Source: Kofleriaceae bacterium (GTDB lineage: Bacteria; Myxococcota_A; Polyangia; Haliangiales; Haliangiaceae). From it: DNA of 33,784 bases. The stretch's first letter is position 1, and the number at the start of each line of letters is the position of its first letter. Shown here piece by piece: positions 13,506 to 33,784 of the stretch. Location of the stretch: positions 1 through 33,784 of the forward strand of contig JABFXX010000436.1 in NCBI GenBank assembly GCA_013368795.1, written 5' to 3'. The notes under the pieces were generated by a model, which was not told the DNA's origin, did no database searches, and worked only from the letters and a program-made list of their open reading frames with translations. The position numbers and the translations under genes are program-made.

Positions 13506-14846
13506 ATGGCCAGCGAATCCATTCTCGCTCAAGCGATCGCCGAGCAAGCAACGCCGATGATCGGAGCTCAGAGCGATTTCGACCTGTTGCTCGATCGCAT
13601 TGGCGACGCGCGCATCGTGATGCTCGGAGAAGCCACCCACGGCACTCACGACTTCTACCGGATCCGCGCAGAGCTCACGAAACGTCTCATCAACGAGAAG
13701 GGGTTCGCGGCGATCGCAGCCGAGGCCGACTGGCCCGACGCGTACCGGATCAACCGCTTCATCCGTGGGATGGGCCGCGACGTCGATGCCATCGAGTCGC
13801 TCGCCGATTTCGAGAGGTTTCCGCAGTGGATGTGGCGCAATGCGGACGTCCTCGATCTCGTCGGCTGGCTTCGCAGTCACAACGACGAGATCGATGACCC
13901 GTCGCTGCGGGTCGGCTTTTACGGCCTCGACCTCTACTCGCTGCACGCGTCGATGCACTCGGTGCTCTCGTATCTCCAGTCGCGCGATCCGGCACTGGCC
14001 GCCGAGGCGAGCCGGCGCTACGCGTGCTTCGATCGGTACGACGAGCCGCAGCTCTACGGCGAGGCGGTGTCGTCGGGCCTCACGGCCGATTGCGAGGAGG
14101 AGGCGGTCGCCCAGCTCGTCGAGCTGCTGAAGCGCCGCAGCGAGCTGCTACACCGCGACGGCGTGGTGGCCGAAGACGCGCAGTTCGAGGCCGAGCAGAA
14201 CGCGCGCGTCGTCGCGAGGGCAGAGGAGTACTACCGGATGATGTACTTCCGCGGCGTGTCGACGTGGAACCTGCGCGACACGCACATGGCGGACACGCTC
14301 GATGCGCTGTCGGCTCACCTCGAGAGGATGGGCCGCGCCGGCAAGATCATCGTGTGGGCTCACAACTCGCACGTCGGCGATTCCGAGGCGATGGCCCATC
14401 GCGCCGAGCGCGCGGAGATCACCGTCGGGCACCTGACCCGCCAGCGCCACCCGGGAGACACGATCCTCGTCGGGTTCACGACGTTCAATGGCACCGTCAC
14501 CGCGGCGTCGGACTGGGGAGGCGCCGGAGAGCGCAAGATGGTGAGGCCCGCCCTCGCGAACAGCTACGAGACGCTGTTCCACCGCACCGGCGTGCCGAGC
14601 TTCATGCTCCTGATGTCGGACCTCGGCGAGCTGACCGGCGCGCTGCACGAGCCTCGCCTCCAGCGCGCGATCGGTGTCGTCTACCGGCCGCAGACCGAAC
14701 GCTGGAGTCACTACTTCGACGTCCGGATCGCGGACCAACTCGATGCGGTGATCCACGTCGACCACACCCGCGCACTCGAACCGCTCGAGCGGACCGCACT
14801 GTGGGATCGCGGCGAGCTGCCGGAGACGTACCCGACCGGCTTCTAG
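13506..14846 (+). CDS. Erythromycin-esterase-family hydrolase
   Basis: This 446-aa protein belongs to the EreA/EreB-like family. It has MLGEATHGTHDFYRIRAELT, where His45 and Glu42 correspond to the catalytic His/Glu pair. IAAEADWPDAYRIN carries the next conserved Glu, and IIVWAHNSHVGD the distal histidine pair. True Ere enzymes open macrolide lactones, but most chromosomal members are uncharacterised and often lie next to phosphoribosyltransferases, as here, so I do not claim macrolide resistance. No signal peptide is seen. ATG 13506 starts the conserved frame without an obvious ribosome site. The stop interlocks with that of the flavoprotein gene in CTAG. Confidence 0.85.
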   Translation: MASESILAQAIAEQATPMIGAQSDFDLLLDRIGDARIVMLGEATHGTHDFYRIRAELTKRLINEKGFAAIAAEADWPDAYRINRFIRGMGRDVDAIESLADFERFPQWMWRNADVLDLVGWLRSHNDEIDDPSLRVGFYGLDLYSLHASMHSVLSYLQSRDPALAAEASRRYACFDRYDEPQLYGEAVSSGLTADCEEEAVAQLVELLKRRSELLHRDGVVAEDAQFEAEQNARVVARAEEYYRMMYFRGVSTWNLRDTHMADTLDALSAHLERMGRAGKIIVWAHNSHVGDSEAMAHRAERAEITVGHLTRQRHPGDTILVGFTTFNGTVTAASDWGGAGERKMVRPALANSYETLFHRTGVPSFMLLMSDLGELTGALHEPRLQRAIGVVYRPQTERWSHYFDVRIADQLDAVIHVDHTRALEPLERTALWDRGELPETYPTGF

Positions 14847-20124: not shown

Positions 20125-20403
20125 ATGCGTAGAGACAGGCGCCCGCAAGTTCAGAGCGAAGAGCAAGAGCAGGAAGAGTCCGAGGCCCAGGAGTCGAGCT
20201 CGTCGACCTCGGTCCGCGGAGGCACGCTGCCCGCGGTACAGAGCAGCTTCGCGTCGAGCTCGACACCGACCGCGTCGGAGCGCGCGTACGGACTCGGCGC
20301 CAGCGCGTACACCGGTGGCGGCGGCATCCACTTCGAGAACGAGAGCCCCGAGCTCGAGAGCCACGAGTCGACGCACGTCGTCCAGCAGCGCCGCGGCCAC
20401 TAG
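20125..20403 (+). CDS. Small DUF4157-like (eCIS-core domain) protein
   Basis: This 92-aa protein starts with a highly charged segment rich in Glu, Gln and Ser. It ends with ERAYGLGASAYTGGGGIHF and SHESTHVVQQRRGH. The latter is the HExxH-VVQQ signature of DUF4157, a metallopeptidase-like domain found in large proteins linked to extracellular contractile injection systems. Here the protein stops four residues after VVQQ, and the earlier part of the domain is short and lacks the usual VRVHTD element. It may be a degenerate remnant or a stand-alone mini version. No injection-system gene is nearby. No clear ribosome site precedes ATG 20125. Confidence 0.6.
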   Translation: MRRDRRPQVQSEEQEQEESEAQESSSSTSVRGGTLPAVQSSFASSSTPTASERAYGLGASAYTGGGGIHFENESPELESHESTHVVQQRRGH

Positions 20404-22347: not shown

Positions 22348-23301
22348 ATGCAGCAAATCAAAGGGTGGCTGCTGATCGCACTGGTCAGCATGGTTCCGGC
22401 ATGCGCAGTTTCTGATGGGGATCAGGACGGCGCGCAGTACGCAGGTTCTGCATCGCCGGGTGACACGGGCTCCGATGATGGCGATGGCGGCGGCTCGGGC
22501 GAAATCGGAGCTCTGCCGGGCGAGACGAACGGTGGCAGCGAGGGGGCTGGCGGCACCGGCGCCGAGGGCGTGACGCTGACGACCGGCTGCCCGGCCTATC
22601 ACAACGACGTCTACTCGCCGTACATCGGCTACGGCGACGTCTCGACGGGAACGCCGGCTGTGTTGCCGTGGCGTGGTGTTGCCGGGACGTACCCCGACGC
22701 GGTCGAGGACTTCCGCGCATACAGCGCCGGCCAGCAGATCGAGTGCGGCGCCAACAAGAACGCGCGCGACTATCTCGACGTCACCGCGGGCTGCCTCAAG
22801 GCCGTGTCGAAGAACGGCAACGCGGCGGGCGAGATCCACGGCACGTCGGTGTCCGAGGGCTACTACCGTTCGCTCGCGCTTCCGTACGACAGCGAGCACG
22901 AGCGCGCGGCCGCGTGGACCGATCTCGGTGTCGAGTACAAGTTCTTCTACTCGCAATGGACCAGCAATGTCAGCGGTCCCGGATTCAAGATCTTCGCGCG
23001 CTATCTGAGCGAGTACGATCTCTATGTCGGATCGTGGCGCCAGGACGGTGTCGTGCAGATCCAGAAGAAGCAGTGCGGCGTCTACACGGTGCTCCAGCGC
23101 AACTCGCACTTCGGGCCGCCGGCGCCCAACATGTGGCACACGATCCGGTTCGAGGTGCAGGGCAACGAGCAGCGGCTGTACCTCGACGGTCAGCTGGCGA
23201 TGACCACGCACGACGATTCGATCAAGACCGGCACCGCCGGCATCCGCATCGACTCGGCCGAGAGCTCGCTGATCGATGACTGGAAGGTCTACGCGCCTTA
23301 G
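22348..23301 (+). CDS. Secreted lipoprotein with ConA/LamG-like (DUF1080-type) domain
   Basis: The 317-aa protein has a signal sequence ending near VSMVPAC (Cys19, an imperfect lipobox). An Asp/Gly/Ser-rich linker runs to about residue 75. The rest is a jelly-roll of the ConA-like type: GVEYKFFYSQWTSNVS, FKIFARYLSEYDLYVGSW, then WHTIRFEVQGNEQRLYLDG and the closing TGTAGIRIDSAESSLIDDW. This pattern is known from LamG and 3-keto-disaccharide hydrolase-like domains, which bind or cut sugars. Catalytic residues are not evident, so carbohydrate binding is more likely. Its stop interlocks (TTAG) with that of the TolC-like gene. The neighbouring polysaccharide genes support a role with a surface glycan. 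Confidence 0.7.
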   Translation: MQQIKGWLLIALVSMVPACAVSDGDQDGAQYAGSASPGDTGSDDGDGGGSGEIGALPGETNGGSEGAGGTGAEGVTLTTGCPAYHNDVYSPYIGYGDVSTGTPAVLPWRGVAGTYPDAVEDFRAYSAGQQIECGANKNARDYLDVTAGCLKAVSKNGNAAGEIHGTSVSEGYYRSLALPYDSEHERAAAWTDLGVEYKFFYSQWTSNVSGPGFKIFARYLSEYDLYVGSWRQDGVVQIQKKQCGVYTVLQRNSHFGPPAPNMWHTIRFEVQGNEQRLYLDGQLAMTTHDDSIKTGTAGIRIDSAESSLIDDWKVYAP

Positions 23302-24344
23302 CGCTCGTACTCGCCGACGAGCTCGCTCAGGGCCTGGACGTGGGCCTGCAGGTACGCGAGGTCGGCCTTCGCCTTGACCCAGTCGAACCAGACGGTCTGG
23401 CGGAACCGCACGCTGTCCTCGCTCGGGATGTTCGCGAGCGTCTGCAGCTGCTTGTCGAGATCGCCGACGAGGGCGGTCACCTGTACGACGCGCTTGGACT
23501 CGACCTCGAGCGTGGCGCGCAGCTGCTCGGCCGTGACGTCGCTGCCGAGCGGATCGCGTCCCGAGCGGACGTACTTCGCGCGGCCGGCGGCTGCGCGGTC
23601 GTTGCCGTTGCCGAGCCAGATCGCGCCGATGTTGATTCCGAGCTGGGCGACCGCGAAGTACTGGATGTCCGTGTTCGGGCCCTCGACGAACTTGTCGGCG
23701 CCGACGCGCACGTTGATGTCGTAAGCGCTCACCTTGCGGAGCTTGCCCTCGCGGCGCTCCATCTCGGCATCGGCGTTGCGGAACGCGGTGAGCCGTTCGT
23801 TGAGCGGAACCTGATCCGCCGGCGGCAGCATCGCAAGGTCGCGGCGGGCGGTCGCGGTGAGCGAGCGGAGGTCCTCCACGCGCATGCGCGTCGCGGTCGC
23901 CTCCTGTGCGGTCATCCGGCGCTGCTCGACCGCGGCGTTCGCGTCGGCGAGCATCTTCTCGGCTTCCTGCTGCGCGTCCTCGTAGACCTTGAGGCGGGCG
24001 GCGAGAGCGCGCGCGTTCGTCGCACCGCGCAGTCCGAGCAGCGCGTTGTGGCGCTTGCAGTCGGCGGCGGCGCGAGCCTTGTGCTGGATGCCGGCGTAGA
24101 TGTTCGTGATCGAGTAGCGAATGCCGGCGATCGCGCGGAGGTTGTCGGAATCGGTCGGGTTCACCGCGAACGATGGCTGCTCGATGTAGCCGAACTGACC
24201 GAACACCTCGGGGCCCAGCAGCGGCGCGGCGGTCGCGGAAGCAGAACCTTCGACAAAGTCGCAATAGCCGTCATCGATGGGCTCCGCGAGCGCGGTCGCA
24301 GGAGCCAGGGCGAGGACGGTAACGAGTGTGGCGCAACGGCTCAT
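23298..24344 (-). CDS. TolC-like outer-membrane export protein (probable)
   Basis: This protein of about 348 aa has a cleavable signal peptide ending ATALAEP. Two regions of long amphipathic helices (about residues 100-185 and 270-345) flank strand-rich segments, including VRVGADKFVEG and VAQLGINIGAIWLG. Two helix-pair and strand units in one chain is the TolC plan, though the protein is shorter than typical TolC (about 430-490 aa) and sequence similarity is weak. The membrane-anchored adaptor at 25245-26828 and the glycosyltransferase beyond it fit a trans-envelope export route. I chose ATG 24344; GTG 24353 is an alternative. It could instead be a periplasmic coiled-coil protein. Confidence 0.55.
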   Translation of the reverse strand: MSRCATLVTVLALAPATALAEPIDDGYCDFVEGSASATAAPLLGPEVFGQFGYIEQPSFAVNPTDSDNLRAIAGIRYSITNIYAGIQHKARAAADCKRHNALLGLRGATNARALAARLKVYEDAQQEAEKMLADANAAVEQRRMTAQEATATRMRVEDLRSLTATARRDLAMLPPADQVPLNERLTAFRNADAEMERREGKLRKVSAYDINVRVGADKFVEGPNTDIQYFAVAQLGINIGAIWLGNGNDRAAAGRAKYVRSGRDPLGSDVTAEQLRATLEVESKRVVQVTALVGDLDKQLQTLANIPSEDSVRFRQTVWFDWVKAKADLAYLQAHVQALSELVGEYER

Positions 24345-24456
24345 AGGGGTCACGCGTACGGGTTTTTACAGGACGCGTGCCACTTCTCCGGGAAACCAAC
24401 GAGCGCGATTCCACCACGGCGTGCCGCCTCACGCTCACCCGGTGAGAGAGGCGGGC

Positions 24457-25248
24457 ATGCTTGAAGGCGGCATCAGGAATGCTCGTCTCACTGGCGTGAA
24501 ATGGATCAGAACTGCATTGTTGTTGGCGATCACGGCGTCAGGCTGCGATAGCAGCGTTGGCGCTACCCCCCGCGCACGAGCGCCCAAGACACTGCGGCCA
24601 CCCGCGCACGTCGATCCCAGTCGGCGGCTCGAATGGGTGAAGAACGATGCGCTGTGTGTCACCAAGGGCAAGCTCGCCAGCGCACGCGTCGAAGTCCCCA
24701 CGTTCCGTGCGGTAGCGCTCGATCGCGGCGGCGATGGCGCGGCGGCGAAGTTCGTCGTCCACGGCGCCACCGCGACCGAGCGAGCGCTCGCCTCGGGGCA
24801 GGAGCGCCGGCAGATCGGCCTGAAGCTCCGCGCCGAGAATGGCTGCAACCTCGTGTACGTCATGTGGCGCCTCGATCCGAAGCCGAAGATCGACGTCTCG
24901 GTGAAGCGGAACGTCGGCCAGAAGACCTCGAAGGAGTGCGGCGCCGAGGGCTACACGAAGGTCAAGCCGACCTCGTCGCTCGGACCCGCAGACCTGCCGA
25001 CGCTCGACGACAACACCGAGCACGAGCTCCGCGCCGAGATCACCGGCGATGCGCTCGTCGCGTGGGTCGACGGTCGCGTCGCGTGGATGGGATCGCTGCC
25101 CGAAACGGCGCGCACGCTCGCCGGTCCGGCGGGCGTGCGTTCCGATAACCTCGATTTCGAGCTTCGCGGCCTCGCCGTCGATGTCGGCTCTCGCGCGGAT
25201 GTCGCTGCGAAGTGCCTGACCGGCGACGAGGCGACCGACTCGGACTAG
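24457..25248 (+). CDS. Lipoprotein with ConA/LamG-like fold (probable)
   Basis: This 263-aa protein has a signal sequence ending AITASGC (Cys30). The mature part carries strands such as KFVVHGATATERALAS, CNLVYVMWRLDP and the end segment LVAWVDGRVAWMGSL with GPAGVRSDNLDFELRGL. That end matches the LYLDG...GTAGIRIDSAES layout of the protein at 22348, so both probably share a ConA-like fold. ATG 24457 has GAGAGG at a good distance; GTG 24496 is a later alternative. The gene is divergent from the TolC-like gene and convergent with the adaptor gene, sharing a CTAG stop overlap with the latter. It probably binds a glycan at the envelope. No catalytic motif is seen. Confidence 0.65.
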   Translation: MLEGGIRNARLTGVKWIRTALLLAITASGCDSSVGATPRARAPKTLRPPAHVDPSRRLEWVKNDALCVTKGKLASARVEVPTFRAVALDRGGDGAAAKFVVHGATATERALASGQERRQIGLKLRAENGCNLVYVMWRLDPKPKIDVSVKRNVGQKTSKECGAEGYTKVKPTSSLGPADLPTLDDNTEHELRAEITGDALVAWVDGRVAWMGSLPETARTLAGPAGVRSDNLDFELRGLAVDVGSRADVAAKCLTGDEATDSD

Positions 25249-26828
25249 ATGCCGAGCGGGCGGCCGCCCGCGAACAGAACCTCGTTCTCCGCGGCGGCTG
25301 CATCGGTCATCTGCATCTCGATCATCCGGCCGCGCAGAATCGAGTCGCGGTTCGGGTGCTTGACCGAGACCTCGCCGGGCAGGATCTCGAGCACCTTGCC
25401 GACCTCACGGCAGAGCACCATCTCGAGGCGGCAGGCGTACAGCGCCGTGCCCTTCTCGATGTTGTCGAGGTTGGCGTACGGGACGAGCGCCACCGTCGCA
25501 TTGTCCGCCATCGCACGGAGGTAGGCCGACTGGGTCACGCCCTCGATGATCTTGTCCTGGCGCTCGAGCGACCCCTTGAGGCGCTCGCGATTACTCAGCT
25601 CGCGCGCGAGAGCGAGCTTGGACGACTCGTAGTCACGGGCGATCTTGAGGACGTCGTAGCTGAGCGCGGCGGTCGCGGTCTTGTCGGCGAGGATCGCGTC
25701 GAGCGCCTGGGTCTCCGTCCGGAGATCGGCCGCACGCTGATCGTATTCGACCTGGCGCTCGGCCAGCGACAGGTTGGCGGTCGAGATCTGCGCGAGCTGG
25801 TACTTGCCCGCGAGCATCGCGTTGCGATCGATCAGGTTTGCCGAGTAGTTCACGTCGTCGGTCTCGCCGGCGACCTTGGAGTAATCGGTGTTTGCGGTGC
25901 GGATCTGGCTGCGCGTTGCCGCCGCCGACTCGGCGAGCTCCTTGACGCGGTCGAGCGCGACGCGGCGCCCCTCGGCGTCCTTCTTGATCGCGCGGGCGAA
26001 CTGCATCTGGAAGTCCTGCTCGGCGCGGATCGAGCGCTCCGCTTCGCCCAGCTCGCCGACGAGCTTCGCGCGCTCGTTGAGGAGGCTGGCGAGCTCGCCC
26101 TGAAGGCCGACGACCTTTTCATCATTGGGCGAGAGCGCCACAGGCGTCACCCAGGTGTGGTTCAGGAAGTAGAACGCGGTCGTCGCGATGTAGCTGACGA
26201 GCACGACGACGATGAGCGTGAGGATGCCGAAACCGAACAGGCGGTAGGCTTTCACGACCAGCTGCTGCGCCTTCCTCGTGGTCGGGTGCGGCGTCAGGCC
26301 GAGATCCTCGAACTTGTTCCACTTACCGGGCGCGGGCTCGTCGGCCGCCGGCAGCTTGTCGAGCGGAATCGGATCGCGCGCGATCTCGAGCTTCGGCAGC
26401 GACTCCTTCTTCTTGGTCAGAGGAATCGGCTCGCCATCGAGGACCTTGAGCGACGGGTCGGTCAGCTTCTTCAGCGACGGGTCGGTCGCCGTCTTGAGGC
26501 TGGGGTCCGTCGGATACTTGGTCTTCGCGATCGCCGTCACGGTCGCTGGTGACACGAAGAGCTGTGCGCCGTCGATCTCCAGCCCGTTCTTGCCTGCGGG
26601 AAACGCCGGCACACCGAGCAGGGTGTTCGTGGAAACGCCGCTCGTCTTGGAAGATGGGATCTCGCCGGAGACCGCCGGGAGAGACGGCGATGCGAGCGCT
26701 GCCGCCTCTCCTTGCACAGACGCGCCGCGCGGATCGCTGGCGGTGGTGGACGAGCTTTCGCTCGAATCATCATGCGAATCGCCAGAAACCTTGACGACGC
26801 GAAGACTGGGGTCGAGTTGAGACGACAT
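25245..26828 (-). CDS. Membrane-anchored HlyD-like adaptor with long cytoplasmic N-terminus
   Basis: The 527-aa protein has about 195 residues of disordered, Ser/Pro/Lys-rich cytoplasmic sequence, one membrane helix (about 199-221) and a large periplasmic part. That part is mostly coiled coil (about 235-460), followed by a small domain with MVLCREVGKVLEILPGEVSV and RGRMIEMQM, like the barrel of HlyD/membrane-fusion proteins. Such adaptors bridge an inner-membrane transporter to a TolC-like channel; in alginate export Alg44 plays a comparable part beside its synthase. Three exact 8-residue repeats (TDPSLKxx) lie at residues 107-130, and a fourth DPSLR is near the N-terminus. The order of neighbours (synthase, adaptor, TolC-like) supports this role. 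Confidence 0.7.
   Translation of the reverse strand: MSSQLDPSLRVVKVSGDSHDDSSESSSTTASDPRGASVQGEAAALASPSLPAVSGEIPSSKTSGVSTNTLLGVPAFPAGKNGLEIDGAQLFVSPATVTAIAKTKYPTDPSLKTATDPSLKKLTDPSLKVLDGEPIPLTKKKESLPKLEIARDPIPLDKLPAADEPAPGKWNKFEDLGLTPHPTTRKAQQLVVKAYRLFGFGILTLIVVVLVSYIATTAFYFLNHTWVTPVALSPNDEKVVGLQGELASLLNERAKLVGELGEAERSIRAEQDFQMQFARAIKKDAEGRRVALDRVKELAESAAATRSQIRTANTDYSKVAGETDDVNYSANLIDRNAMLAGKYQLAQISTANLSLAERQVEYDQRAADLRTETQALDAILADKTATAALSYDVLKIARDYESSKLALARELSNRERLKGSLERQDKIIEGVTQSAYLRAMADNATVALVPYANLDNIEKGTALYACRLEMVLCREVGKVLEILPGEVSVKHPNRDSILRGRMIEMQMTDAAAAENEVLFAGGRPLGI
26439..26510 (-). repeat. Three tandem 24-nt units coding TDPSLK octapeptides
   Basis: Three consecutive 24-base units encode TDPSLKTA, TDPSLKKL and TDPSLKVL in the adaptor's cytoplasmic tail. 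Units two and three share long identical stretches. A related DPSLR occurs at residues 6-10. Confidence 0.85.
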
Positions 26829-26969
26829 TTGCGACGGACCAACTGCAAGGCATCCGCCATTTCGCTATGTGCTCAAATGAACGTGGCGCCGGTGCAAAGC
26901 CGCGCAGTGGGCGCTTTTTCGTAGTGGTCTCTTCTGAGGGCGGCATCGCTCTTGCTGCGGTGCTGAGAA
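26829..26969. promoter_or_regulatory. Divergent intergenic region, adaptor to glycosyltransferase
   Basis: These 141 bp separate the two key polysaccharide genes and should hold both promoters. A weak 4-bp hairpin (GCGC-AGTGG-GCGC) is followed by TTTTT at about 26904-26919. It could attenuate transcription into the glycosyltransferase, but the stem is too short to be confident. Confidence 0.3.
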
Positions 26970-28178
26970 GTGACCCTCGTCGTCTCATTATTCATCTTCA
27001 TCGTCTTCTTGAACCGCTACTTCTTCGGTCTCTATCTCCGCCTCACGCGCGGCAAGAAGGTAGATGACAAGCTGGAGGGCTACGAGCCGACGATCACGAT
27101 CGTCGTCCCGCTCTTTAATGAGGGCCGATCGATCTATGAAACGATCGCGAGCTTCTCGCGGCTCGACTATCCAAAAGAGAAGCTATCGATCACGATCGTC
27201 GACGACTGCTCGACCGACGATAGTTACGAGTGGGCCTGCAAGGGCGCGAAAGACTTCGCGAACGTCAAGGTCATCCAGAATCCCCACAACATGGGCAAGC
27301 GGCGCGGCATCAACCGCGCGGTGCGCGAGGCGACCTCGGAGATCATCGTCTCGGTCGACTCGGACGTCATCGTCTATCCGACGGCGCTCCGCGAGCTGGT
27401 CGCCCGGTTCACGCGGCCCGAGATCGCCGCGGTCGGTGGCCGGATCCACGTGTCGAATCCCAACGACAACTGGCTCACGAAGATGCAGACCATCAAGTAC
27501 TTCTACGGCCAGGAGTTCTTGAAGAACCTCGAGCGCTCGCTCGAGCAGGTGATGTGTCTGTCGGGCTGCCTCACCGCGTACAGGCGCTCGGTGCTGCTCG
27601 AGCTCGAGCCGATCCTCGAGAAGCGCAACATCCTCGGCGTACCGATCAAGTACGGCGAGGATCGCTACCTGACGCGGCAGATCGTCAAGGCCGGCTACAA
27701 GACGCGCATGACGATGGACGCGATGTGCTTCACGAAGGCGCCTCGCCGGCTTCGCGACTACTTCAACCAGCAGCTGCGCTGGAAGCGCTCGAACATCGTC
27801 GACTACGTGCTCGGTCTCAGCCACGCGTGGGCGCTGCACCCGCTGATCGCGATCCACTACCTCTCGCTCTGCCTGCTCCTCTTTGTCTATCCGTTCGTCA
27901 TCATCACGCACCTCGTCCAGCACGAGTTCTTCGAGCTAGCTGCAATCCACCTCCAGATCATCGCGCTGTTCGCGCTCATCTATCACTTCGCGCCGAGCAC
28001 GCGCCGGCTGCCACCGTGGCTGCGCGTGCATCCGGTCGCGTTCTTGCCGATGACCGTTCTCATGCCCGTCGCCTATCTGATCCTGACGCCGCTCGGCCTC
28101 CTGACGCTCGACACCTCGAGCTGGGAGACGCGCGGTCACGGACGTGTCGCTGGCGCGGCACCGCAAGGAGTAGCCTAG
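26970..28178 (+). CDS. Processive family-2 glycosyltransferase (polysaccharide synthase)
   Basis: This 402-aa membrane protein has an N-terminal helix (about 2-23), a GT-A domain and C-terminal helices (about 285-380). Key motifs are VDDCSTDD, the metal-binding DSD at 130-132, the catalytic GED region (YGEDRYLT, residues 229-236) and QQLRW at 267-271, the QxxRW motif of processive synthases such as NodC, HasA and cellulose synthase. CLSGCLTAYRRSVL also resembles NodC and HasA. It probably polymerises a beta-linked hexose or N-acetylhexosamine and extrudes it through the inner membrane. The sugar is inferred only. The start is GTG 26970: an in-frame TGA ends one codon before it and no other start lies near. 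It is followed directly by the WbqC gene. Confidence 0.9.
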   Translation: MTLVVSLFIFIVFLNRYFFGLYLRLTRGKKVDDKLEGYEPTITIVVPLFNEGRSIYETIASFSRLDYPKEKLSITIVDDCSTDDSYEWACKGAKDFANVKVIQNPHNMGKRRGINRAVREATSEIIVSVDSDVIVYPTALRELVARFTRPEIAAVGGRIHVSNPNDNWLTKMQTIKYFYGQEFLKNLERSLEQVMCLSGCLTAYRRSVLLELEPILEKRNILGVPIKYGEDRYLTRQIVKAGYKTRMTMDAMCFTKAPRRLRDYFNQQLRWKRSNIVDYVLGLSHAWALHPLIAIHYLSLCLLLFVYPFVIITHLVQHEFFELAAIHLQIIALFALIYHFAPSTRRLPPWLRVHPVAFLPMTVLMPVAYLILTPLGLLTLDTSSWETRGHGRVAGAAPQGVA

Positions 28179-28940
28179 ATGATCGTCGCAGCTCACCAAC
28201 CTCATTACCTGCCGTGGCTCGGATACCTCGATAAGGTCGCGAAGGCCGATGTGTTCGTCGTGATGGATGACCTGCAGTTCGAGGCGCAGAACTTCCAGAA
28301 TCGCCAGCGCCTCAAGCTGTCGGAGGGGCCGGGCTGGCTGACCGTGCCGCTCTTGCACGGCGGTCAGACGGAGCGCCTGATCGACAAGCGCATCGCCGCA
28401 TCGGAGAACCCCAAGCAGCACTGGCAGCACCGCCACTGGAACACGCTCCTCCTCAACTACGGCAAGGCGCCGTACTTCGCGCAGTACGCCGACGAGCTGA
28501 AGGACGTGTTCACGCGGCCGTGGTCGAGCCTCGTCGAGCTCGACCTCCACATGCTCGACCTCGCACTGAAGTGGCTCGACATCCACACGCCGATCATGAG
28601 GTCGTCGCAGATCGGCTTCTCCGGCTACAAGACCGACCGTCTGATCGACATGTGCAAGAAGCTCGGCGCGCGCTGTTACCTGACCGGTTCCGGCGGCTCG
28701 GCGGGCTACCTCGACTCGGAGAAGATGGGTCGCGCGGGTGTCGGCGTGATCTGGCAGCAGTTCACGCACCCGCTGTATCCGCAGCGCTTCGAGCGCCGGG
28801 GCTTCTCGTCGCATCTCGGCTTCCTCGATCTGCTGCTCAACTGCGGCCCGCAGAGCCGCGAGATCCTGTTCGGCGCGTCGCACCCGATGCACGTCATGCC
28901 GGCCGCGCCCGCTCCATTGCGCGCGATGGAGGCAGCATGA
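28179..28940 (+). CDS. WbqC-family protein
   Basis: This 253-aa soluble protein begins IVAAHQPHYLPWLGYLDKVA, followed by ADVFVVMDDLQFEAQNFQNRQRLK, the signature of the WbqC family. The middle has WLTVPLLHGG, and conserved GARCYLTGSGGSAGYLDSE and HPLYPQRF segments follow. WbqC genes occur in O-antigen and other surface-glycan clusters; the reaction is not firmly known but is linked to modification of sugars or glycan-attached amino groups. AAGGAG lies about 9 nt before ATG 28179, which follows the glycosyltransferase stop directly. The 3' end overlaps the deacetylase gene by 4 nt, so the three genes form an operon. Confidence 0.9.
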   Translation: MIVAAHQPHYLPWLGYLDKVAKADVFVVMDDLQFEAQNFQNRQRLKLSEGPGWLTVPLLHGGQTERLIDKRIAASENPKQHWQHRHWNTLLLNYGKAPYFAQYADELKDVFTRPWSSLVELDLHMLDLALKWLDIHTPIMRSSQIGFSGYKTDRLIDMCKKLGARCYLTGSGGSAGYLDSEKMGRAGVGVIWQQFTHPLYPQRFERRGFSSHLGFLDLLLNCGPQSREILFGASHPMHVMPAAPAPLRAMEAA

Positions 28941-29566
28941 ACCGCATCCTCAACGACAAGGGTGGCACCGTGCTCGCGTTCGGCGCGCACCCCGACGATA
29001 TCGAGATCGGTGCGGGCGGGTTGCTCGCGCGCCTCTCCGCCGAGGGTGCCGACGTGAACATGGCTGTCGTCAGCATGCCGAACAACGTCGAGACGCGACG
29101 CGCCGAAGCGAGGGCAGGTGCCGAGAAGATCGGCGCCGAGCTGATGATCCTGTTCGAGGACAAGCCGTGCCGCGTCGAGGACGTGCCGATGTACGAGCTC
29201 GTGCGGCGGTTCGATCAACTGATCGGCGACCTGCATCCCGACCTCGTCATCACGCACTCGGCGAACGACCTCCACTGGGATCACGGGCTCGTGCACAAGG
29301 CGACGGTGTCGGCGCTCCGCCGCACGCCGTGCGATCTGCTCGCATTCCTGTCGAGCCCGGAGATGAACGCACACGCGCGCTGCGTCGGCGAGTGCTTCGC
29401 GGACATCTCGACGACAATCGACGTCAAGATCGACGCGATCCGCTGCCACCAGTCTCAGATCGCGAAGATGGACATCGAGTCGTCGCGCGACCTCGCGCGC
29501 GCGATGGGCCGCATCAGCGGCTACGACTACGCCGAGGCCTATCAAGTCCTGCGCGTTCGCGTGTAA
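28937..29566 (+). CDS. PIG-L/LmbE-family deacetylase
   Basis: The 209-aa protein has the zinc motif AHPDDIEIG, with His18 and Asp21. The second histidine cluster is NDLHWDHGLVHKA, where His113, Asp115, His116 and His120 complete the usual site. PIG-L/LmbE enzymes remove N-acetyl groups from GlcNAc-containing molecules. Placement behind a NodC/HasA-like synthase and a WbqC protein suggests it acts on a nucleotide sugar, lipid-linked sugar or the polymer precursor. It has no signal peptide, so it works in the cytoplasm rather than on exported polymer. I chose ATG 28937, which overlaps the WbqC stop (ATGA). The longer open frame is a shadow of wbqC. It ends 3 nt from the convergent slipin gene. 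Confidence 0.9.
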   Translation: MNRILNDKGGTVLAFGAHPDDIEIGAGGLLARLSAEGADVNMAVVSMPNNVETRRAEARAGAEKIGAELMILFEDKPCRVEDVPMYELVRRFDQLIGDLHPDLVITHSANDLHWDHGLVHKATVSALRRTPCDLLAFLSSPEMNAHARCVGECFADISTTIDVKIDAIRCHQSQIAKMDIESSRDLARAMGRISGYDYAEAYQVLRVRV

Positions 29567-29569
29567 CGG

Positions 29570-30469
29570 TCAATGCCGGGTCGGCTGCGCCTGCTGATTC
29601 AGCTCGGCTGCCATGCCCGTGATGCCGGCGATGGTGCCCAGCTGCATCGACTCGACGGCGCTGCTCGGCACGAGCACGATCGTCGCGTTCTGCTTGAGGC
29701 CCTCGTACAGCATGTTCATCGCGCGAAGGTGCAGCGCGGTCGGATCGTTGGCGTAGGTCTTCGCGGCCTCGCCGAACTTCTCGGCGATCTGGCGCTCGGA
29801 GTCGCCGAGGATGACGCGCGCCTGGCGCTCGCGCTCTGCCTGCGCCTGCATCGACATCGCGTCCTGGAGACCAGCGGGGATGTTGATGTCGCGCACCTCG
29901 ACGGAGAGGACGCTGACGCCCCACGACTCGGTCTGCGCGTCGATGATCTGGCGGAGGTCGAGTGACATCCGCTGCCGGCCTTCGAGCATGTCGGCGAGCA
30001 GCGTCTTACCGATCACGTCGCGCAGTGCGGTCTGCGCGGCCCAGTTGATCGCGGCGCGGTAGTCGGCGACCGCGAGCGCCGCCTTCTCGGCATCGACGAC
30101 CTTCCAGAACAGGACGGCATCGACGTCGACGGGGACGGTGTCCTTGGTCAGCGTCTTCTCGGCCTTGAACGAAGACGTGATGACGCGGATGTCGATCCAG
30201 TACGGAATCGTGTCGACGATCGGCACGATACCGAACAGGCCCGCACCTCGGAGGCCGCGGAACTTGCCGAGCCTGAGGACGACGGCGCGCTCCCAGGCGG
30301 AGGCGACGCGGATCGCCCGCGCAACAAACCCGGCGATGACGATCGTGACGACGAACGTCGCAATACTTGCGGTCGGACCCACGGATCCGTAGACGCCGTA
30401 GGTCAGTGCGCTACCGGCGAGCGCGATCGCGATGAAGATGAGTGCCGGAAACGAGCTTCTTCGCTCCAT
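29570..30469 (-). CDS. Slipin (SPFH/stomatin-like membrane protein)
   Basis: This protein of about 299 aa has two N-terminal hydrophobic segments (about 8-27 and 35-55) and then the SPFH domain. RVASAWERAVVLRLGKFRGLRG is followed by FGIVPIVDTI and KDTVPVDVDAVLFWKVVDAEKAALAV. A charged helical region (MQAQAERERQARVILGDSERQIAEKF) continues the stomatin pattern, as does the closing NATIVLVPSSAVESM. Slipins form membrane microdomain scaffolds. The partner protease or NfeD gene that often sits beside slipins is absent. ATG 30469 is preferred, with GTG 30475 as alternative. A 24-nt imperfect palindrome lies 19 nt upstream. Confidence 0.9.
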   Translation of the reverse strand: MERRSSFPALIFIAIALAGSALTYGVYGSVGPTASIATFVVTIVIAGFVARAIRVASAWERAVVLRLGKFRGLRGAGLFGIVPIVDTIPYWIDIRVITSSFKAEKTLTKDTVPVDVDAVLFWKVVDAEKAALAVADYRAAINWAAQTALRDVIGKTLLADMLEGRQRMSLDLRQIIDAQTESWGVSVLSVEVRDINIPAGLQDAMSMQAQAERERQARVILGDSERQIAEKFGEAAKTYANDPTALHLRAMNMLYEGLKQNATIVLVPSSAVESMQLGTIAGITGMAAELNQQAQPTRH

Positions 30470-30487
30470 GATCACGTCGGCTGCATC

Positions 30488-30660: not shown

Positions 30661-33096
30661 ATGTCACAGCGGGCTCCCGCGCTCACGTCCGGCTTCATCG
30701 CCGAGCTCGATGGCCTTCGCGGCATCGCGATCTTGATGGTCATGGTGCATCGGTTCTGGCCTCGCACAGGCATCGGCGTCGGCGCAGACGTCGCGGGTGC
30801 CGGCTGGATCGGCGTCGATCTGTTCTTCGTGATCAGCGGCTTCTTGATCACCGGCATCCTGCTCGACACCAAGGGCGAGCCCGGTTACTTCCGCAACTTC
30901 TACGCGCGGCGGATGCTGCGCATCTTCCCTCTCTATTACTTGTTCGTGGTCGGCGTGCTTCTCGCGTTCTCGGGCAACCCCGAGTTCCGCGACCACGCAG
31001 GCTCGCCGTTCTGGTACCTGTTCCACCTCGGCAACATCCCCGAGGGCATCCTCGGCAAGGACGTCCCGTACTTCCTCGCGCCGACGTGGTCGCTCGCGAT
31101 CGAGGAGCAGTTCTATCTGACGTTCCCGCTGCTCGTGTGGTTCCTGAACCGGCAGCGCCTGACGCTGCTCCTCGTCGGGATGATCGCGTTCGCGCCGGTG
31201 ATCCGGATGATCACGACGTTCGAGTTCCCCGAGCACGAGCGCGTGCAGTACCTGTTCACGCTCTGCCGCATCGACACGCTCGCGGTCGGCTGTCTGCTCG
31301 CGATCCTCGTCCGCTCGATCGACGTCGAGAAGTGGCGCGTGCCGCTCCAGTTCGCGGCGATGATGGCGCTGCCGAGCATCATCATCCTCGCGGTCGCGAG
31401 TGGCCTCGAGCGGACGAGCCCCTTCGATCGCGTGTTCGGCTACAGCATCGTCGCCGTCGGCTGCGCCTGCATCGTCGCGATCGTCGTGCTCTCGCGAGGC
31501 AGCAGGTCGCTGGCGCTCCTGCGATTGCCGCCGCTCCAGTACTTCGGCAAGCTCTGCTTCGGTCTCTATCTCCTGCATCGCCCCGCCGACACGCTCGTCA
31601 GGGCGGTCGCCGCGCGCGTCGGCATCCAGCGCGATCTGTGGCTGCTCGTGCCGAAGATCTGCGTCGCGCTCGCGCTCGCGACGATCTCCTGGCAGCTGTT
31701 CGAGAAGCGGTTCCTGCGGCTCAAGGACTGGTTCGTCACCGATCGCCATCCGAACGCCGCGGCCGCGACGACGCTGCCGGCGAAGGCGCCCACCGGCTTC
31801 ATCGGCAAGCTGTTGCGTACGATCGGTATCCTGAGCGTGCTCGTCGCGATGGGCTGCGATCCCGAGCCCGTCCCCGAGGACGCGCCGATGACGACCGGCT
31901 CTGGCTCGGATGGCGGGGCCCACGACGCGGCGCAGAGGGACGCCCAGACCGGTCCGTTCACGGGCCGCGTGCTCTACCCGGAGGGCTCGCGTCACTCGCC
32001 GATCACGCCGGACGTCGTCGCCAAGCTCCAGGCGATCGCGGCGTTCGGTTCCCAGAACGACCGCGTGTTCGCGAAGGTCGGCGACTCGATCACCGTCGAG
32101 GACGACTTCCTCAACTGCTTCGATGGCGGCACGATCGACCTCGCGGGCCGCGCCGACCTCTCCGCGACGGTCACGTATTTCATGGGCGGCAACGCAGCCG
32201 GCTCGTCGCCGTTCGCGCGTACGAGCTACGCCGCGAGGGGCGGCACGACGGCGGCCGATGTCATGAACGGTTCGCCGTCGCCACTCGTCAAGGAGCTGAC
32301 CGCGATCACGCCGCGCATCGAGGTGCTGATGTTCGGCACCAACGAGGATCGCTATGGCTGGTCGCTCGACGCGTTCGGCGAGCAGCTGTGGGACGTCGTC
32401 GACGCGAGCATCGCGCGCGGCGTGATCCCCGTGATGTCGACGATACCTGCAAACACCGGCTATCCCGCCGCCGACGCGCGCGTGCCGACGTTCAATCGCG
32501 TCGTCCGCGCGATCGCGCAGGGGCGCGGCGTTCCGCTCGTCGATCTCCATCGCGCGCTCGAGCCACTTCCGAACCGCGGCATCTCGAGCGATGGCATCCA
32601 CCCATCGATCGCGCCGAGCGGCGGCTGCATCCTGAACGCGACCGGCCTGCAGTACGGCTACAACATGCGCAACCTGCTGACGCTCGAGGTCCTCGCGCGG
32701 ACCCGAGACGCGCTCGCCGGGGTCGCCGCCGACGCGAGCGCGCCGCAGCAAACGGGCGAGGGCACGGCCAGCGATCCGTTCGTCGGCGGGCTGCCGTTCG
32801 TCGACCTGCGAGACACGCGCGCGGGCAGCAACGCGGCACCGCAGGGCTGCGGCGCGGCGACCGGCAACCAGGTCGCGTTCCGGATCACCGTGCCGGCTCC
32901 GACGACGATCGATGCGAACGTCATCGATCGTCCGGGCACCGATGTCGACGTCCGGGTGATCCAGAACGGCACCTGCCTCGCGACCGGCGACGCGAGCGCC
33001 ACCGCGGCCGTGGCGGCCGGCCACGTCGACATCGTCGTCGAGGCGCAGAGCGGCGCGACCGAGGGCGAGTTCCTGCTCGTCGTCGAGTCTCGCTAG
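30661..33096 (+). CDS. Acyltransferase-3 membrane protein fused to an SGNH-hydrolase domain
   Basis: The 811-aa protein begins with an acyltransferase-3 domain of about ten membrane helices (residues 12-370). It carries [19 protein letters not shown] with catalytic-type His30, then FFVISGFLI and [14 protein letters not shown]. Near residues 383-399 a short hydrophobic segment ends in LVAMGC, which looks like a lipobox (Cys399) and is followed by an acidic linker. An SGNH-hydrolase-like domain follows with VGDSI (Ser476), FGTNE (Asn561) and SDGIHPS (Asp644, His647). A C-terminal beta domain (about 700-811) closes it. AT3-SGNH proteins O-acetylate surface glycans, using an eleventh helix to place SGNH in the periplasm. 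Here that helix coincides with a lipobox. ATG 30661 has no ribosome site. Confidence 0.85.
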
Positions 33097-33784
33097 AGCT
33101 GCCACGTCGTCGTCGTGCAGCTCGCGGCGAACGCGTCATCGTGGCTGACGAGGACGAGCGCGCCAGGATACGCGACGAGCGCGGCCTCGAGCCGCTCGAT
33201 CGACGGCAGGTCGAGATGGTTCGTCGGCTCGTCGAGCACGAGCACCCACGCGTGCCGGCCGAGGCCGAGCGCGAGCGCGAGCTTGCGGGCCTCGCCCGGC
33301 GACGGCGACGCCGACGCGAGCAGCCGATCCGGATCGACGCCGAGCGCCGCGACGAGCGAGAACACGCGGCCTCGCTCGACCGGCGGCAACCGCCGGGCCT
33401 CGGCGAGCAGCTCGCGCGCGTCGTCGTCGGCGAGCTCCTGCGGCAGCATCAGGACGCGCTCGGCCGGCAGCGTGCTCGCCGCGAGCAGCGCGCGCAGAAG
33501 CGTCGTCTTGCCGGCGCCGTTGGCACCCGCGATCCGGATCCGATCGGCCGCGCCGACGGCGTACTTCGCGTTGCGCAGCACGATCGTGTCGCCGGCCTTC
33601 ACCTCGGGTGCGTCGAGCTCGAGCAGCCAGCGGCGCGGCGGACGCTCGTAGCCGACGAACACCGAGCGGCCGAGCTCCTTCACGATCGGCGCGTCGGGGA
33701 TCGCCGCCGCGGCGCGATCGGCTTCCCGGCGCGCGACCTCGACGCGGCGGCCGGCCCGCGCCTCGGCCCAGCCGACGAGCGTCG
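33093..33784 (-). CDS. ABC-F family ATPase, C-terminal nucleotide-binding domain (5' truncated by window)
   Basis: The gene runs off the right edge, so only the last 229 codons are visible. They hold the Walker A motif [13 protein letters not shown], a degenerate signature ([15 protein letters not shown]), Walker [14 protein letters not shown] and an H-loop LVLVSHDD. The DEPTNHLD text followed by [10 protein letters not shown] is characteristic of ABC-F proteins, which act on ribosomes rather than as transporters. The helical segment before it, at the edge ([21 protein letters not shown]), resembles the linker between the two ATP-binding domains. The protein ends soon after the H-loop with a short Thr-rich tail. 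The stop interlocks with that of the acyltransferase gene in CTAG. Whether it confers antibiotic resistance cannot be told. Confidence 0.88.

Follow-up and report, generated by a model that had tools for sequence, protein, structure and literature searches.

Tripartite export systems have been reviewed with ATP-binding cassette (ABC), resistance-nodulation-division (RND) and major facilitator superfamily (MFS) transporters as their engines (PMC8277102). For polysaccharides, an XcsA–XcsB–TolC route has been proposed for cellulose secretion in Thermosynechococcus vulcanus (Maeda et al. 2018, as cited in PMC12430437) but has been doubted, its parts not lying in one operon and experimental validation being absent (PMC12430437), and the rhizobial mixed-linkage glucan synthase is accompanied by BgsB, a protein with an HlyD-like domain thought to be an export channel (PMC9495663). 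Here we describe a locus in a 33,784-nucleotide stretch (contig JABFXX010000436.1; the window) from the 9.8-Mb draft genome of a Kofleriaceae-type myxobacterium. It encodes a family 2 glycosyltransferase (GT2) synthase, an HlyD/EmrA-like adaptor, a TolC-like protein, two concanavalin A (ConA)-like lipoproteins (Lip2 and LamG1), a WbqC-family protein and a PIG-L-type deacetylase. We propose that this block is probably a synthase-powered tripartite glycan exporter with its own dedicated, reduced TolC.

By description, the block is like XcsA–XcsB–TolC in combining a GT2 with an HlyD-like adaptor and a TolC-like channel while lacking BcsB and BcsC. The Xcs genes are scattered and their synthase carries a PilZ domain, whereas here the adaptor is linked to a dedicated, reduced TolC, and the 402-residue GT2 has no PilZ match in Pfam; a ConA-like partner and tailoring genes are further additions. 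The likeness to BgsA–BgsB (PMC9495663) lies in a synthase adjoining a protein with an HlyD-like domain; that system, however, is bicistronic, has no linked TolC, and uses a cellulose-synthase-like synthase controlled by cyclic di-GMP. Because of these two precedents, the synthase–HlyD–TolC route cannot stand as the wholly new combination that the original prediction made of it (PMC12430437, PMC9495663). The block is instead a variant of a known but unproven route, with much stronger genetic linkage than its precedent, and, as expected of a synthase-dependent exopolysaccharide system, its genes for passage through the periplasm and outer membrane are linked to the synthase gene. Class I hyaluronan synthase and NodC are similar to the GT2 in sequence, QxxRW motif and membrane layout, but to our knowledge their systems have no dedicated HlyD/TolC pair. 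TolC, OprM and CusC with EmrA/MacA-type adaptors share the predicted folds and the tripartite logic; relative to these, the TolC-like protein is reduced to about 350 residues (versus about 410–490), the helices ahead of its first beta-hairpin being shorter, and the block has no ABC, RND or MFS pump. No description of the block was found in the open-access literature, to which the search was confined.

Relatives were compared among Myxococcales, Kofleriaceae and delta-proteobacterial metagenome bins. The TolC-like protein was present in 17 of 35 genomes of the order, and the adaptor or its short form in 26. Among 24 GT2 copies of the long type (at least 69% identity), the adaptor gene adjoined 23 (the exception sits on a 3.3-kb contig), WbqC adjoined 22, and 18 had both adaptor and TolC-like genes beside them. 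Across 20 mapped loci, an arrangement in which Lip2–TolC–adaptor is divergent from GT2–WbqC–PIG-L recurred many times. Some 20 loci of the family carry the block, and because its proteins have diverged to 40–77% identity, the shared gene order does not merely reflect recency. The original prediction had proposed a search for co-occurrence in related genomes and would have yielded to a lack of any conserved neighbourhood; the neighbourhood is conserved, which supports a retained block of synthase, HlyD-like adaptor and TolC-like protein. A short GT2–adaptor pair also occurs in most genomes of the family. At loci L059, L061, L062, L063, L065, L066 and L068, this short form comprises a GT2 of about 50–57% identity and an adaptor of about 200–270 residues, and neither a TolC-like nor a WbqC gene was detected in its vicinity. 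At L082 (G003:C297) and L092 (G010:C426), parts of the block occur twice in tandem but the TolC-like gene does not, as though the copies shared one channel.

Phylum-wide profile searches, which scored 7–8 candidates per genome and so give lower bounds, gave matches in at least four genomes outside the source genome (G000) among 284. Three loci (L118, L119 and L120) come from families or classes elsewhere in the phylum; their genes lie on one strand in the order GT2–adaptor–TolC–Lip2, and neither WbqC nor PIG-L was detected beside them; a heparinase II/III-type lyase lies upstream in L118 and a UDP-sugar dehydrogenase nearby in L120. In two of these lineages, the TolC-like protein and Lip2 are fused in a single open frame (L119:3500–5194, minus strand; L120:7078–8922, plus strand), the polypeptides matching the TolC-like profile at E=8.6e-29 and 4.4e-28 and the Lip2 profile at 3.6e-40 and 4.8e-31, respectively. 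A plasmid of Paraburkholderia sp. PGU19 (NZ_AP023182.1, L141:6800–12211) carries unannotated genes that run on one strand: first an adaptor (profile E=2.6e-27), then a TolC-like protein (1.3e-8) whose N-terminus has the same YC motif, next a UDP-sugar dehydrogenase, and last a GT2 that matches Chitin_synth_2. This TolC-like homolog surfaced only as the adaptor's neighbor, a search of plasmids with the TolC-like protein itself having returned no match. Finally, at loci L069, L070 and L121, a divergent TolC-like protein and adaptor accompany another kind of GT2, 590 residues long. The L121 module additionally holds an epimerase-type gene and an aminotransferase gene. Only four gene types form the core across lineages, namely GT2, adaptor, TolC-like protein and the ConA-like Lip2. 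Synthase, adaptor and TolC-like protein have thus stayed together, or been reassembled, in several contexts with changing tailoring genes.

This distribution bears on the possibility that the adaptor and TolC-like protein serve as the outer-membrane conduit of an efflux pump or type 1 secretion ATPase encoded elsewhere, the GT2 being a neighbor engaged in lipid or O-antigen glycosylation. ABC, RND and MFS transporters are the usual partners of HlyD/EmrA-type adaptors (PMC8277102), and a partial ABC ATPase is encoded in the window at 33093–33782. However, that gene was not seen next to the block in relatives, and no recurring ABC, RND or MFS gene was seen in the listed flanks, as judged from gene lists rather than a scan of every flank. 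The GT2–adaptor pairing, moreover, persists through the turnover of every other neighbor across classes and phyla and recurs with the second GT2 type; we therefore consider a conduit for an unlinked pump very unlikely.

The channel assignment draws on an AlphaFold model of the 351-residue TolC-like protein, built from 20 homologs (mean predicted local distance difference test score, pLDDT, 81.6). The model runs from a helix through a beta-hairpin (49–58/70–81), a long helix (82–143) and further helices to a second beta-hairpin (211–222/231–240) and closing helices; this predicted structure has the TolC layout of two helix/beta-hairpin/helix repeats. Foldseek returned 39 PDB matches at E<=0.001, every one a TolC/OprM/CusC-type channel and the best at 9.2e-11. 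The PDB matches include YbjP–TolC structures, examples of TolC with a lipoprotein partner. The protein is some 60–140 residues shorter than the matched chains, and its N-terminus is signal-peptide-like. The original prediction had also staked itself on this product being TolC-like, and the product is indeed predicted to fold like TolC.

The adaptor model comprises a disordered, proline-rich N-terminus, one transmembrane helix (within 182–222), a very long helical hairpin whose first arm spans 93 residues, and a C-terminal beta domain, and so presents the HlyD/EmrA layout of N-terminal transmembrane segment, helical hairpin and C-terminal beta domain. Its best Foldseek matches are EmrA (4tko, 7.9e-6) and MacA (3fpp, 7.7e-4). 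None of 23 adaptor homologs matched a Pfam HlyD family, and profile searches of the PDB, run with alignments of the adaptor, TolC-like protein and Lip2, returned no meaningful relatives. It could be argued that the coiled-coil protein acts as a cofactor of the synthase or regulates chain length, and that the 351-residue protein is a periplasmic helical protein merely resembling TolC. The coiled-coil composition, the moderate model confidence and the lack of any Pfam family above cut-off would suit such an interpretation; OEP did not exceed its gathering score in any TolC-like homolog, the best E values being 0.0037–0.0078 in a few. Yet OEP is the commonest weak match among these homologs and appears in several of them, the model's matches below 1e-3 are exclusively TolC-type channels, and its strands and helices are correctly ordered, so that this interpretation appears highly improbable to us.

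The proposed engine, the GT2, matches the Pfam families GT2 (1e-29) and Chitin_synth_2 (8e-20). Its closest solved relative is hyaluronan synthase (8smm, E=4.5e-25), ahead of bacterial cellulose synthase (2.9e-6), and the likeness to hyaluronan synthase extends into the transmembrane part; hydropathy indicates one N-terminal and three to four C-terminal hydrophobic segments. The DD, DSD, ED and QQxRW residues are invariant in 23 homologs, which agrees with the earlier identification of a QxxRW synthase: the processive signature (DxD, catalytic D, QxxRW) is present, the nearest solved relatives are polymer-forming synthases, and the enzyme is putatively processive.

Downstream, the PIG-L protein retains HPDD and HxDH residues that are invariant in 11 homologs. 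Its nearest solved relatives are LmbE (2ixd, 4.6e-10) and a BshB-type enzyme (6p2t), and it resembles N-acetylglucosamine (GlcNAc)-type deacetylases, including diacetylchitobiose deacetylase; no signal peptide was seen. A literature search on WbqC function gave nothing useful. Both genes are accessory, lineage-specific tailoring genes outside the core, and their products probably tailor a precursor or oligosaccharide, most plausibly of GlcNAc type. The cytoplasmic deacetylation originally envisaged, if it acted on a polymer, is hard to square with extrusion during synthesis: if the chain is extruded while growing, a cytoplasmic enzyme is less likely to deacetylate it. A soluble oligosaccharide would suit such a deacetylase better, and the GT2 could accordingly be read as NodC-like, making short chito-oligosaccharides that PIG-L de-N-acetylates, WbqC decorates and the adaptor and TolC-like protein export as an oligosaccharide or glycolipid signal. 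The Chitin_synth_2 match, the deacetylase likeness and the presence of NodC among plasmid proteins similar to the GT2 (30% identity) fit this scheme. Nevertheless, the block holds no recurring acyltransferase or transporter, other lineages keep GT2, adaptor and TolC without WbqC and PIG-L, and the nearest solved relatives are the polymer-forming hyaluronan synthases; we regard export of a NodC-like signal as unlikely.

The synthase-powered exporter is favored by the genes present, by their shared order across classes and phyla, by the TolC-like model and by the channel–lipoprotein fusion, and further by the adaptor fold matches, the hyaluronan synthase likeness, the Paraburkholderia run, the module with the second GT2 type and the lack of a recurring pump gene in the listed flanks. 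The proteins may form a physical complex in which a processive synthase sends its product outward, the GT2 standing in for the usual ABC, RND or MFS pump. The GT2 would polymerize sugar nucleotides at the cytoplasmic face and, by analogy with hyaluronan synthase, thread the chain through its own membrane channel. The adaptor would dock on the GT2, its long helical hairpin spanning the periplasm to a TolC-like trimer, and this shortened, dedicated trimer would carry the chain through the outer membrane. Both termini of TolC are periplasmic, and a C-terminal Lip2 domain would therefore lie in the periplasm at the flank of the channel. Lip2 is a candidate channel companion, since two lineages have it as the C-terminal domain of the TolC-like protein; its ConA-like fold might hold or steer the chain. 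WbqC and PIG-L would tailor the product in the Kofleriaceae-type family. Because of the chitin/hyaluronan synthase likeness and the GlcNAc-type deacetylase, the glycan of this family is tentatively placed in the amino-sugar type, while the UDP-sugar dehydrogenase in the Paraburkholderia run points to a uronic acid-containing glycan there.

Several observations weigh against this exporter. The adaptor fold match is modest (E 8e-6, low template-modelling (TM) score), and coiled-coil proteins draw spurious matches. For the TolC-like model, TM-scores of 0.30–0.42 denote matching topology, not close geometry, and the overall geometry is therefore not well fixed. Some copies, namely those at G003:C260 and G010:C206 and a tandem copy at G003:C297, carry the GT2 and adaptor genes but lack an immediately adjacent TolC-like gene. 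The structural models are of single proteins.

All seven genes of the original prediction were found, at about the positions it gave (Table 1). Codon-position guanine-plus-cytosine content directly backs five of them; Lip2 and PIG-L are nested in longer open frames and are backed by conserved homologs instead. A Pfam scan of the seven proteins recognized only GT2, WbqC and PIG-L, with faint matches for LamG1 (3keto-disac_hyd 0.006, LamG 0.018) and none for the adaptor, TolC-like protein or Lip2. GT2, WbqC and PIG-L form a tight operon, in which no base separates the GT2 stop from the WbqC start and WbqC and PIG-L share four bases (ATGA); to the left of GT2 lie the genes for adaptor, Lip2, TolC-like protein and LamG1.

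Table 1. Genes of the export block, in window coordinates
Gene	Position	Strand	Assignment and basis
LamG1	22348-23301	+	Second ConA/LamG-like lipoprotein; weak Pfam 3keto-disac_hyd/LamG; L038/L143
TolC-like	23298-24353	-	Putative reduced outer-membrane factor, 351 aa; AlphaFold model and Foldseek
Lip2	24496-25248	+	ConA-like lipoprotein with lipobox; conserved family; fusions elsewhere
Adaptor	25245-26828	-	HlyD/EmrA-like membrane-anchored periplasmic adaptor (predicted), 527 aa; AlphaFold model and Foldseek
GT2 synthase	26970-28178	+	Processive-type, 402 aa, hyaluronan/chitin-synthase-like; Pfam
WbqC	28179-28940	+	WbqC-family; PF08889 2.2e-64
PIG-L	28937-29566	+	PIG-L/LmbE-type de-N-acetylase; PF02585 2.2e-18

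The alternating strands and interlocking stops, once taken as a sign that the block is kept together, are local to this copy and a few relatives. The convergent 4-bp stop overlaps at 23298–23301 and 25245–25248 carry no weight, because identical overlaps join unrelated genes of the window (14843–14846 and 33093–33096) and most relatives do not conserve them; Lip2 is codirectional with adaptor and TolC in most relatives. The two ConA/LamG-like proteins are both present and share a domain (hhalign E=1.1e-5); Lip2, which carries a lipobox, belongs to a conserved family. LamG1 falls outside the core: it was seen in only two loci, and in the second (L143, 56% identity) the TolC-like gene is again its neighbor, in a LamG1(+)–TolC(−)–Lip2(+) layout like that of the window. 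An SPFH gene (29570–30475) and an acyltransferase–GDSL gene (30432/30661–33096) were rejected as block members, being absent beside relatives. Elsewhere in the window, a 92-residue protein (20125–20403, plus strand) matches an extracellular contractile injection system (eCIS) core domain (8.8e-7), and an erythromycin-esterase family protein (13506–14846, plus strand) has a strong match (2.1e-122).

We lean towards regarding these loci as a distinct exporter class with a glycan synthase as engine, a reduced TolC lineage of its own and a ConA-like partner that is sometimes fused, spread over both Myxococcota and Betaproteobacteria and combined with two or more types of GT2 and exchangeable tailoring genes. 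To the synthase-driven route the block adds genetic linkage, a dedicated TolC, a lipoprotein–channel fusion and a betaproteobacterial plasmid copy. How synthase products cross the outer membrane thereby becomes a directly testable question, for which the Paraburkholderia sp. PGU19 locus may offer a cultivable test system.

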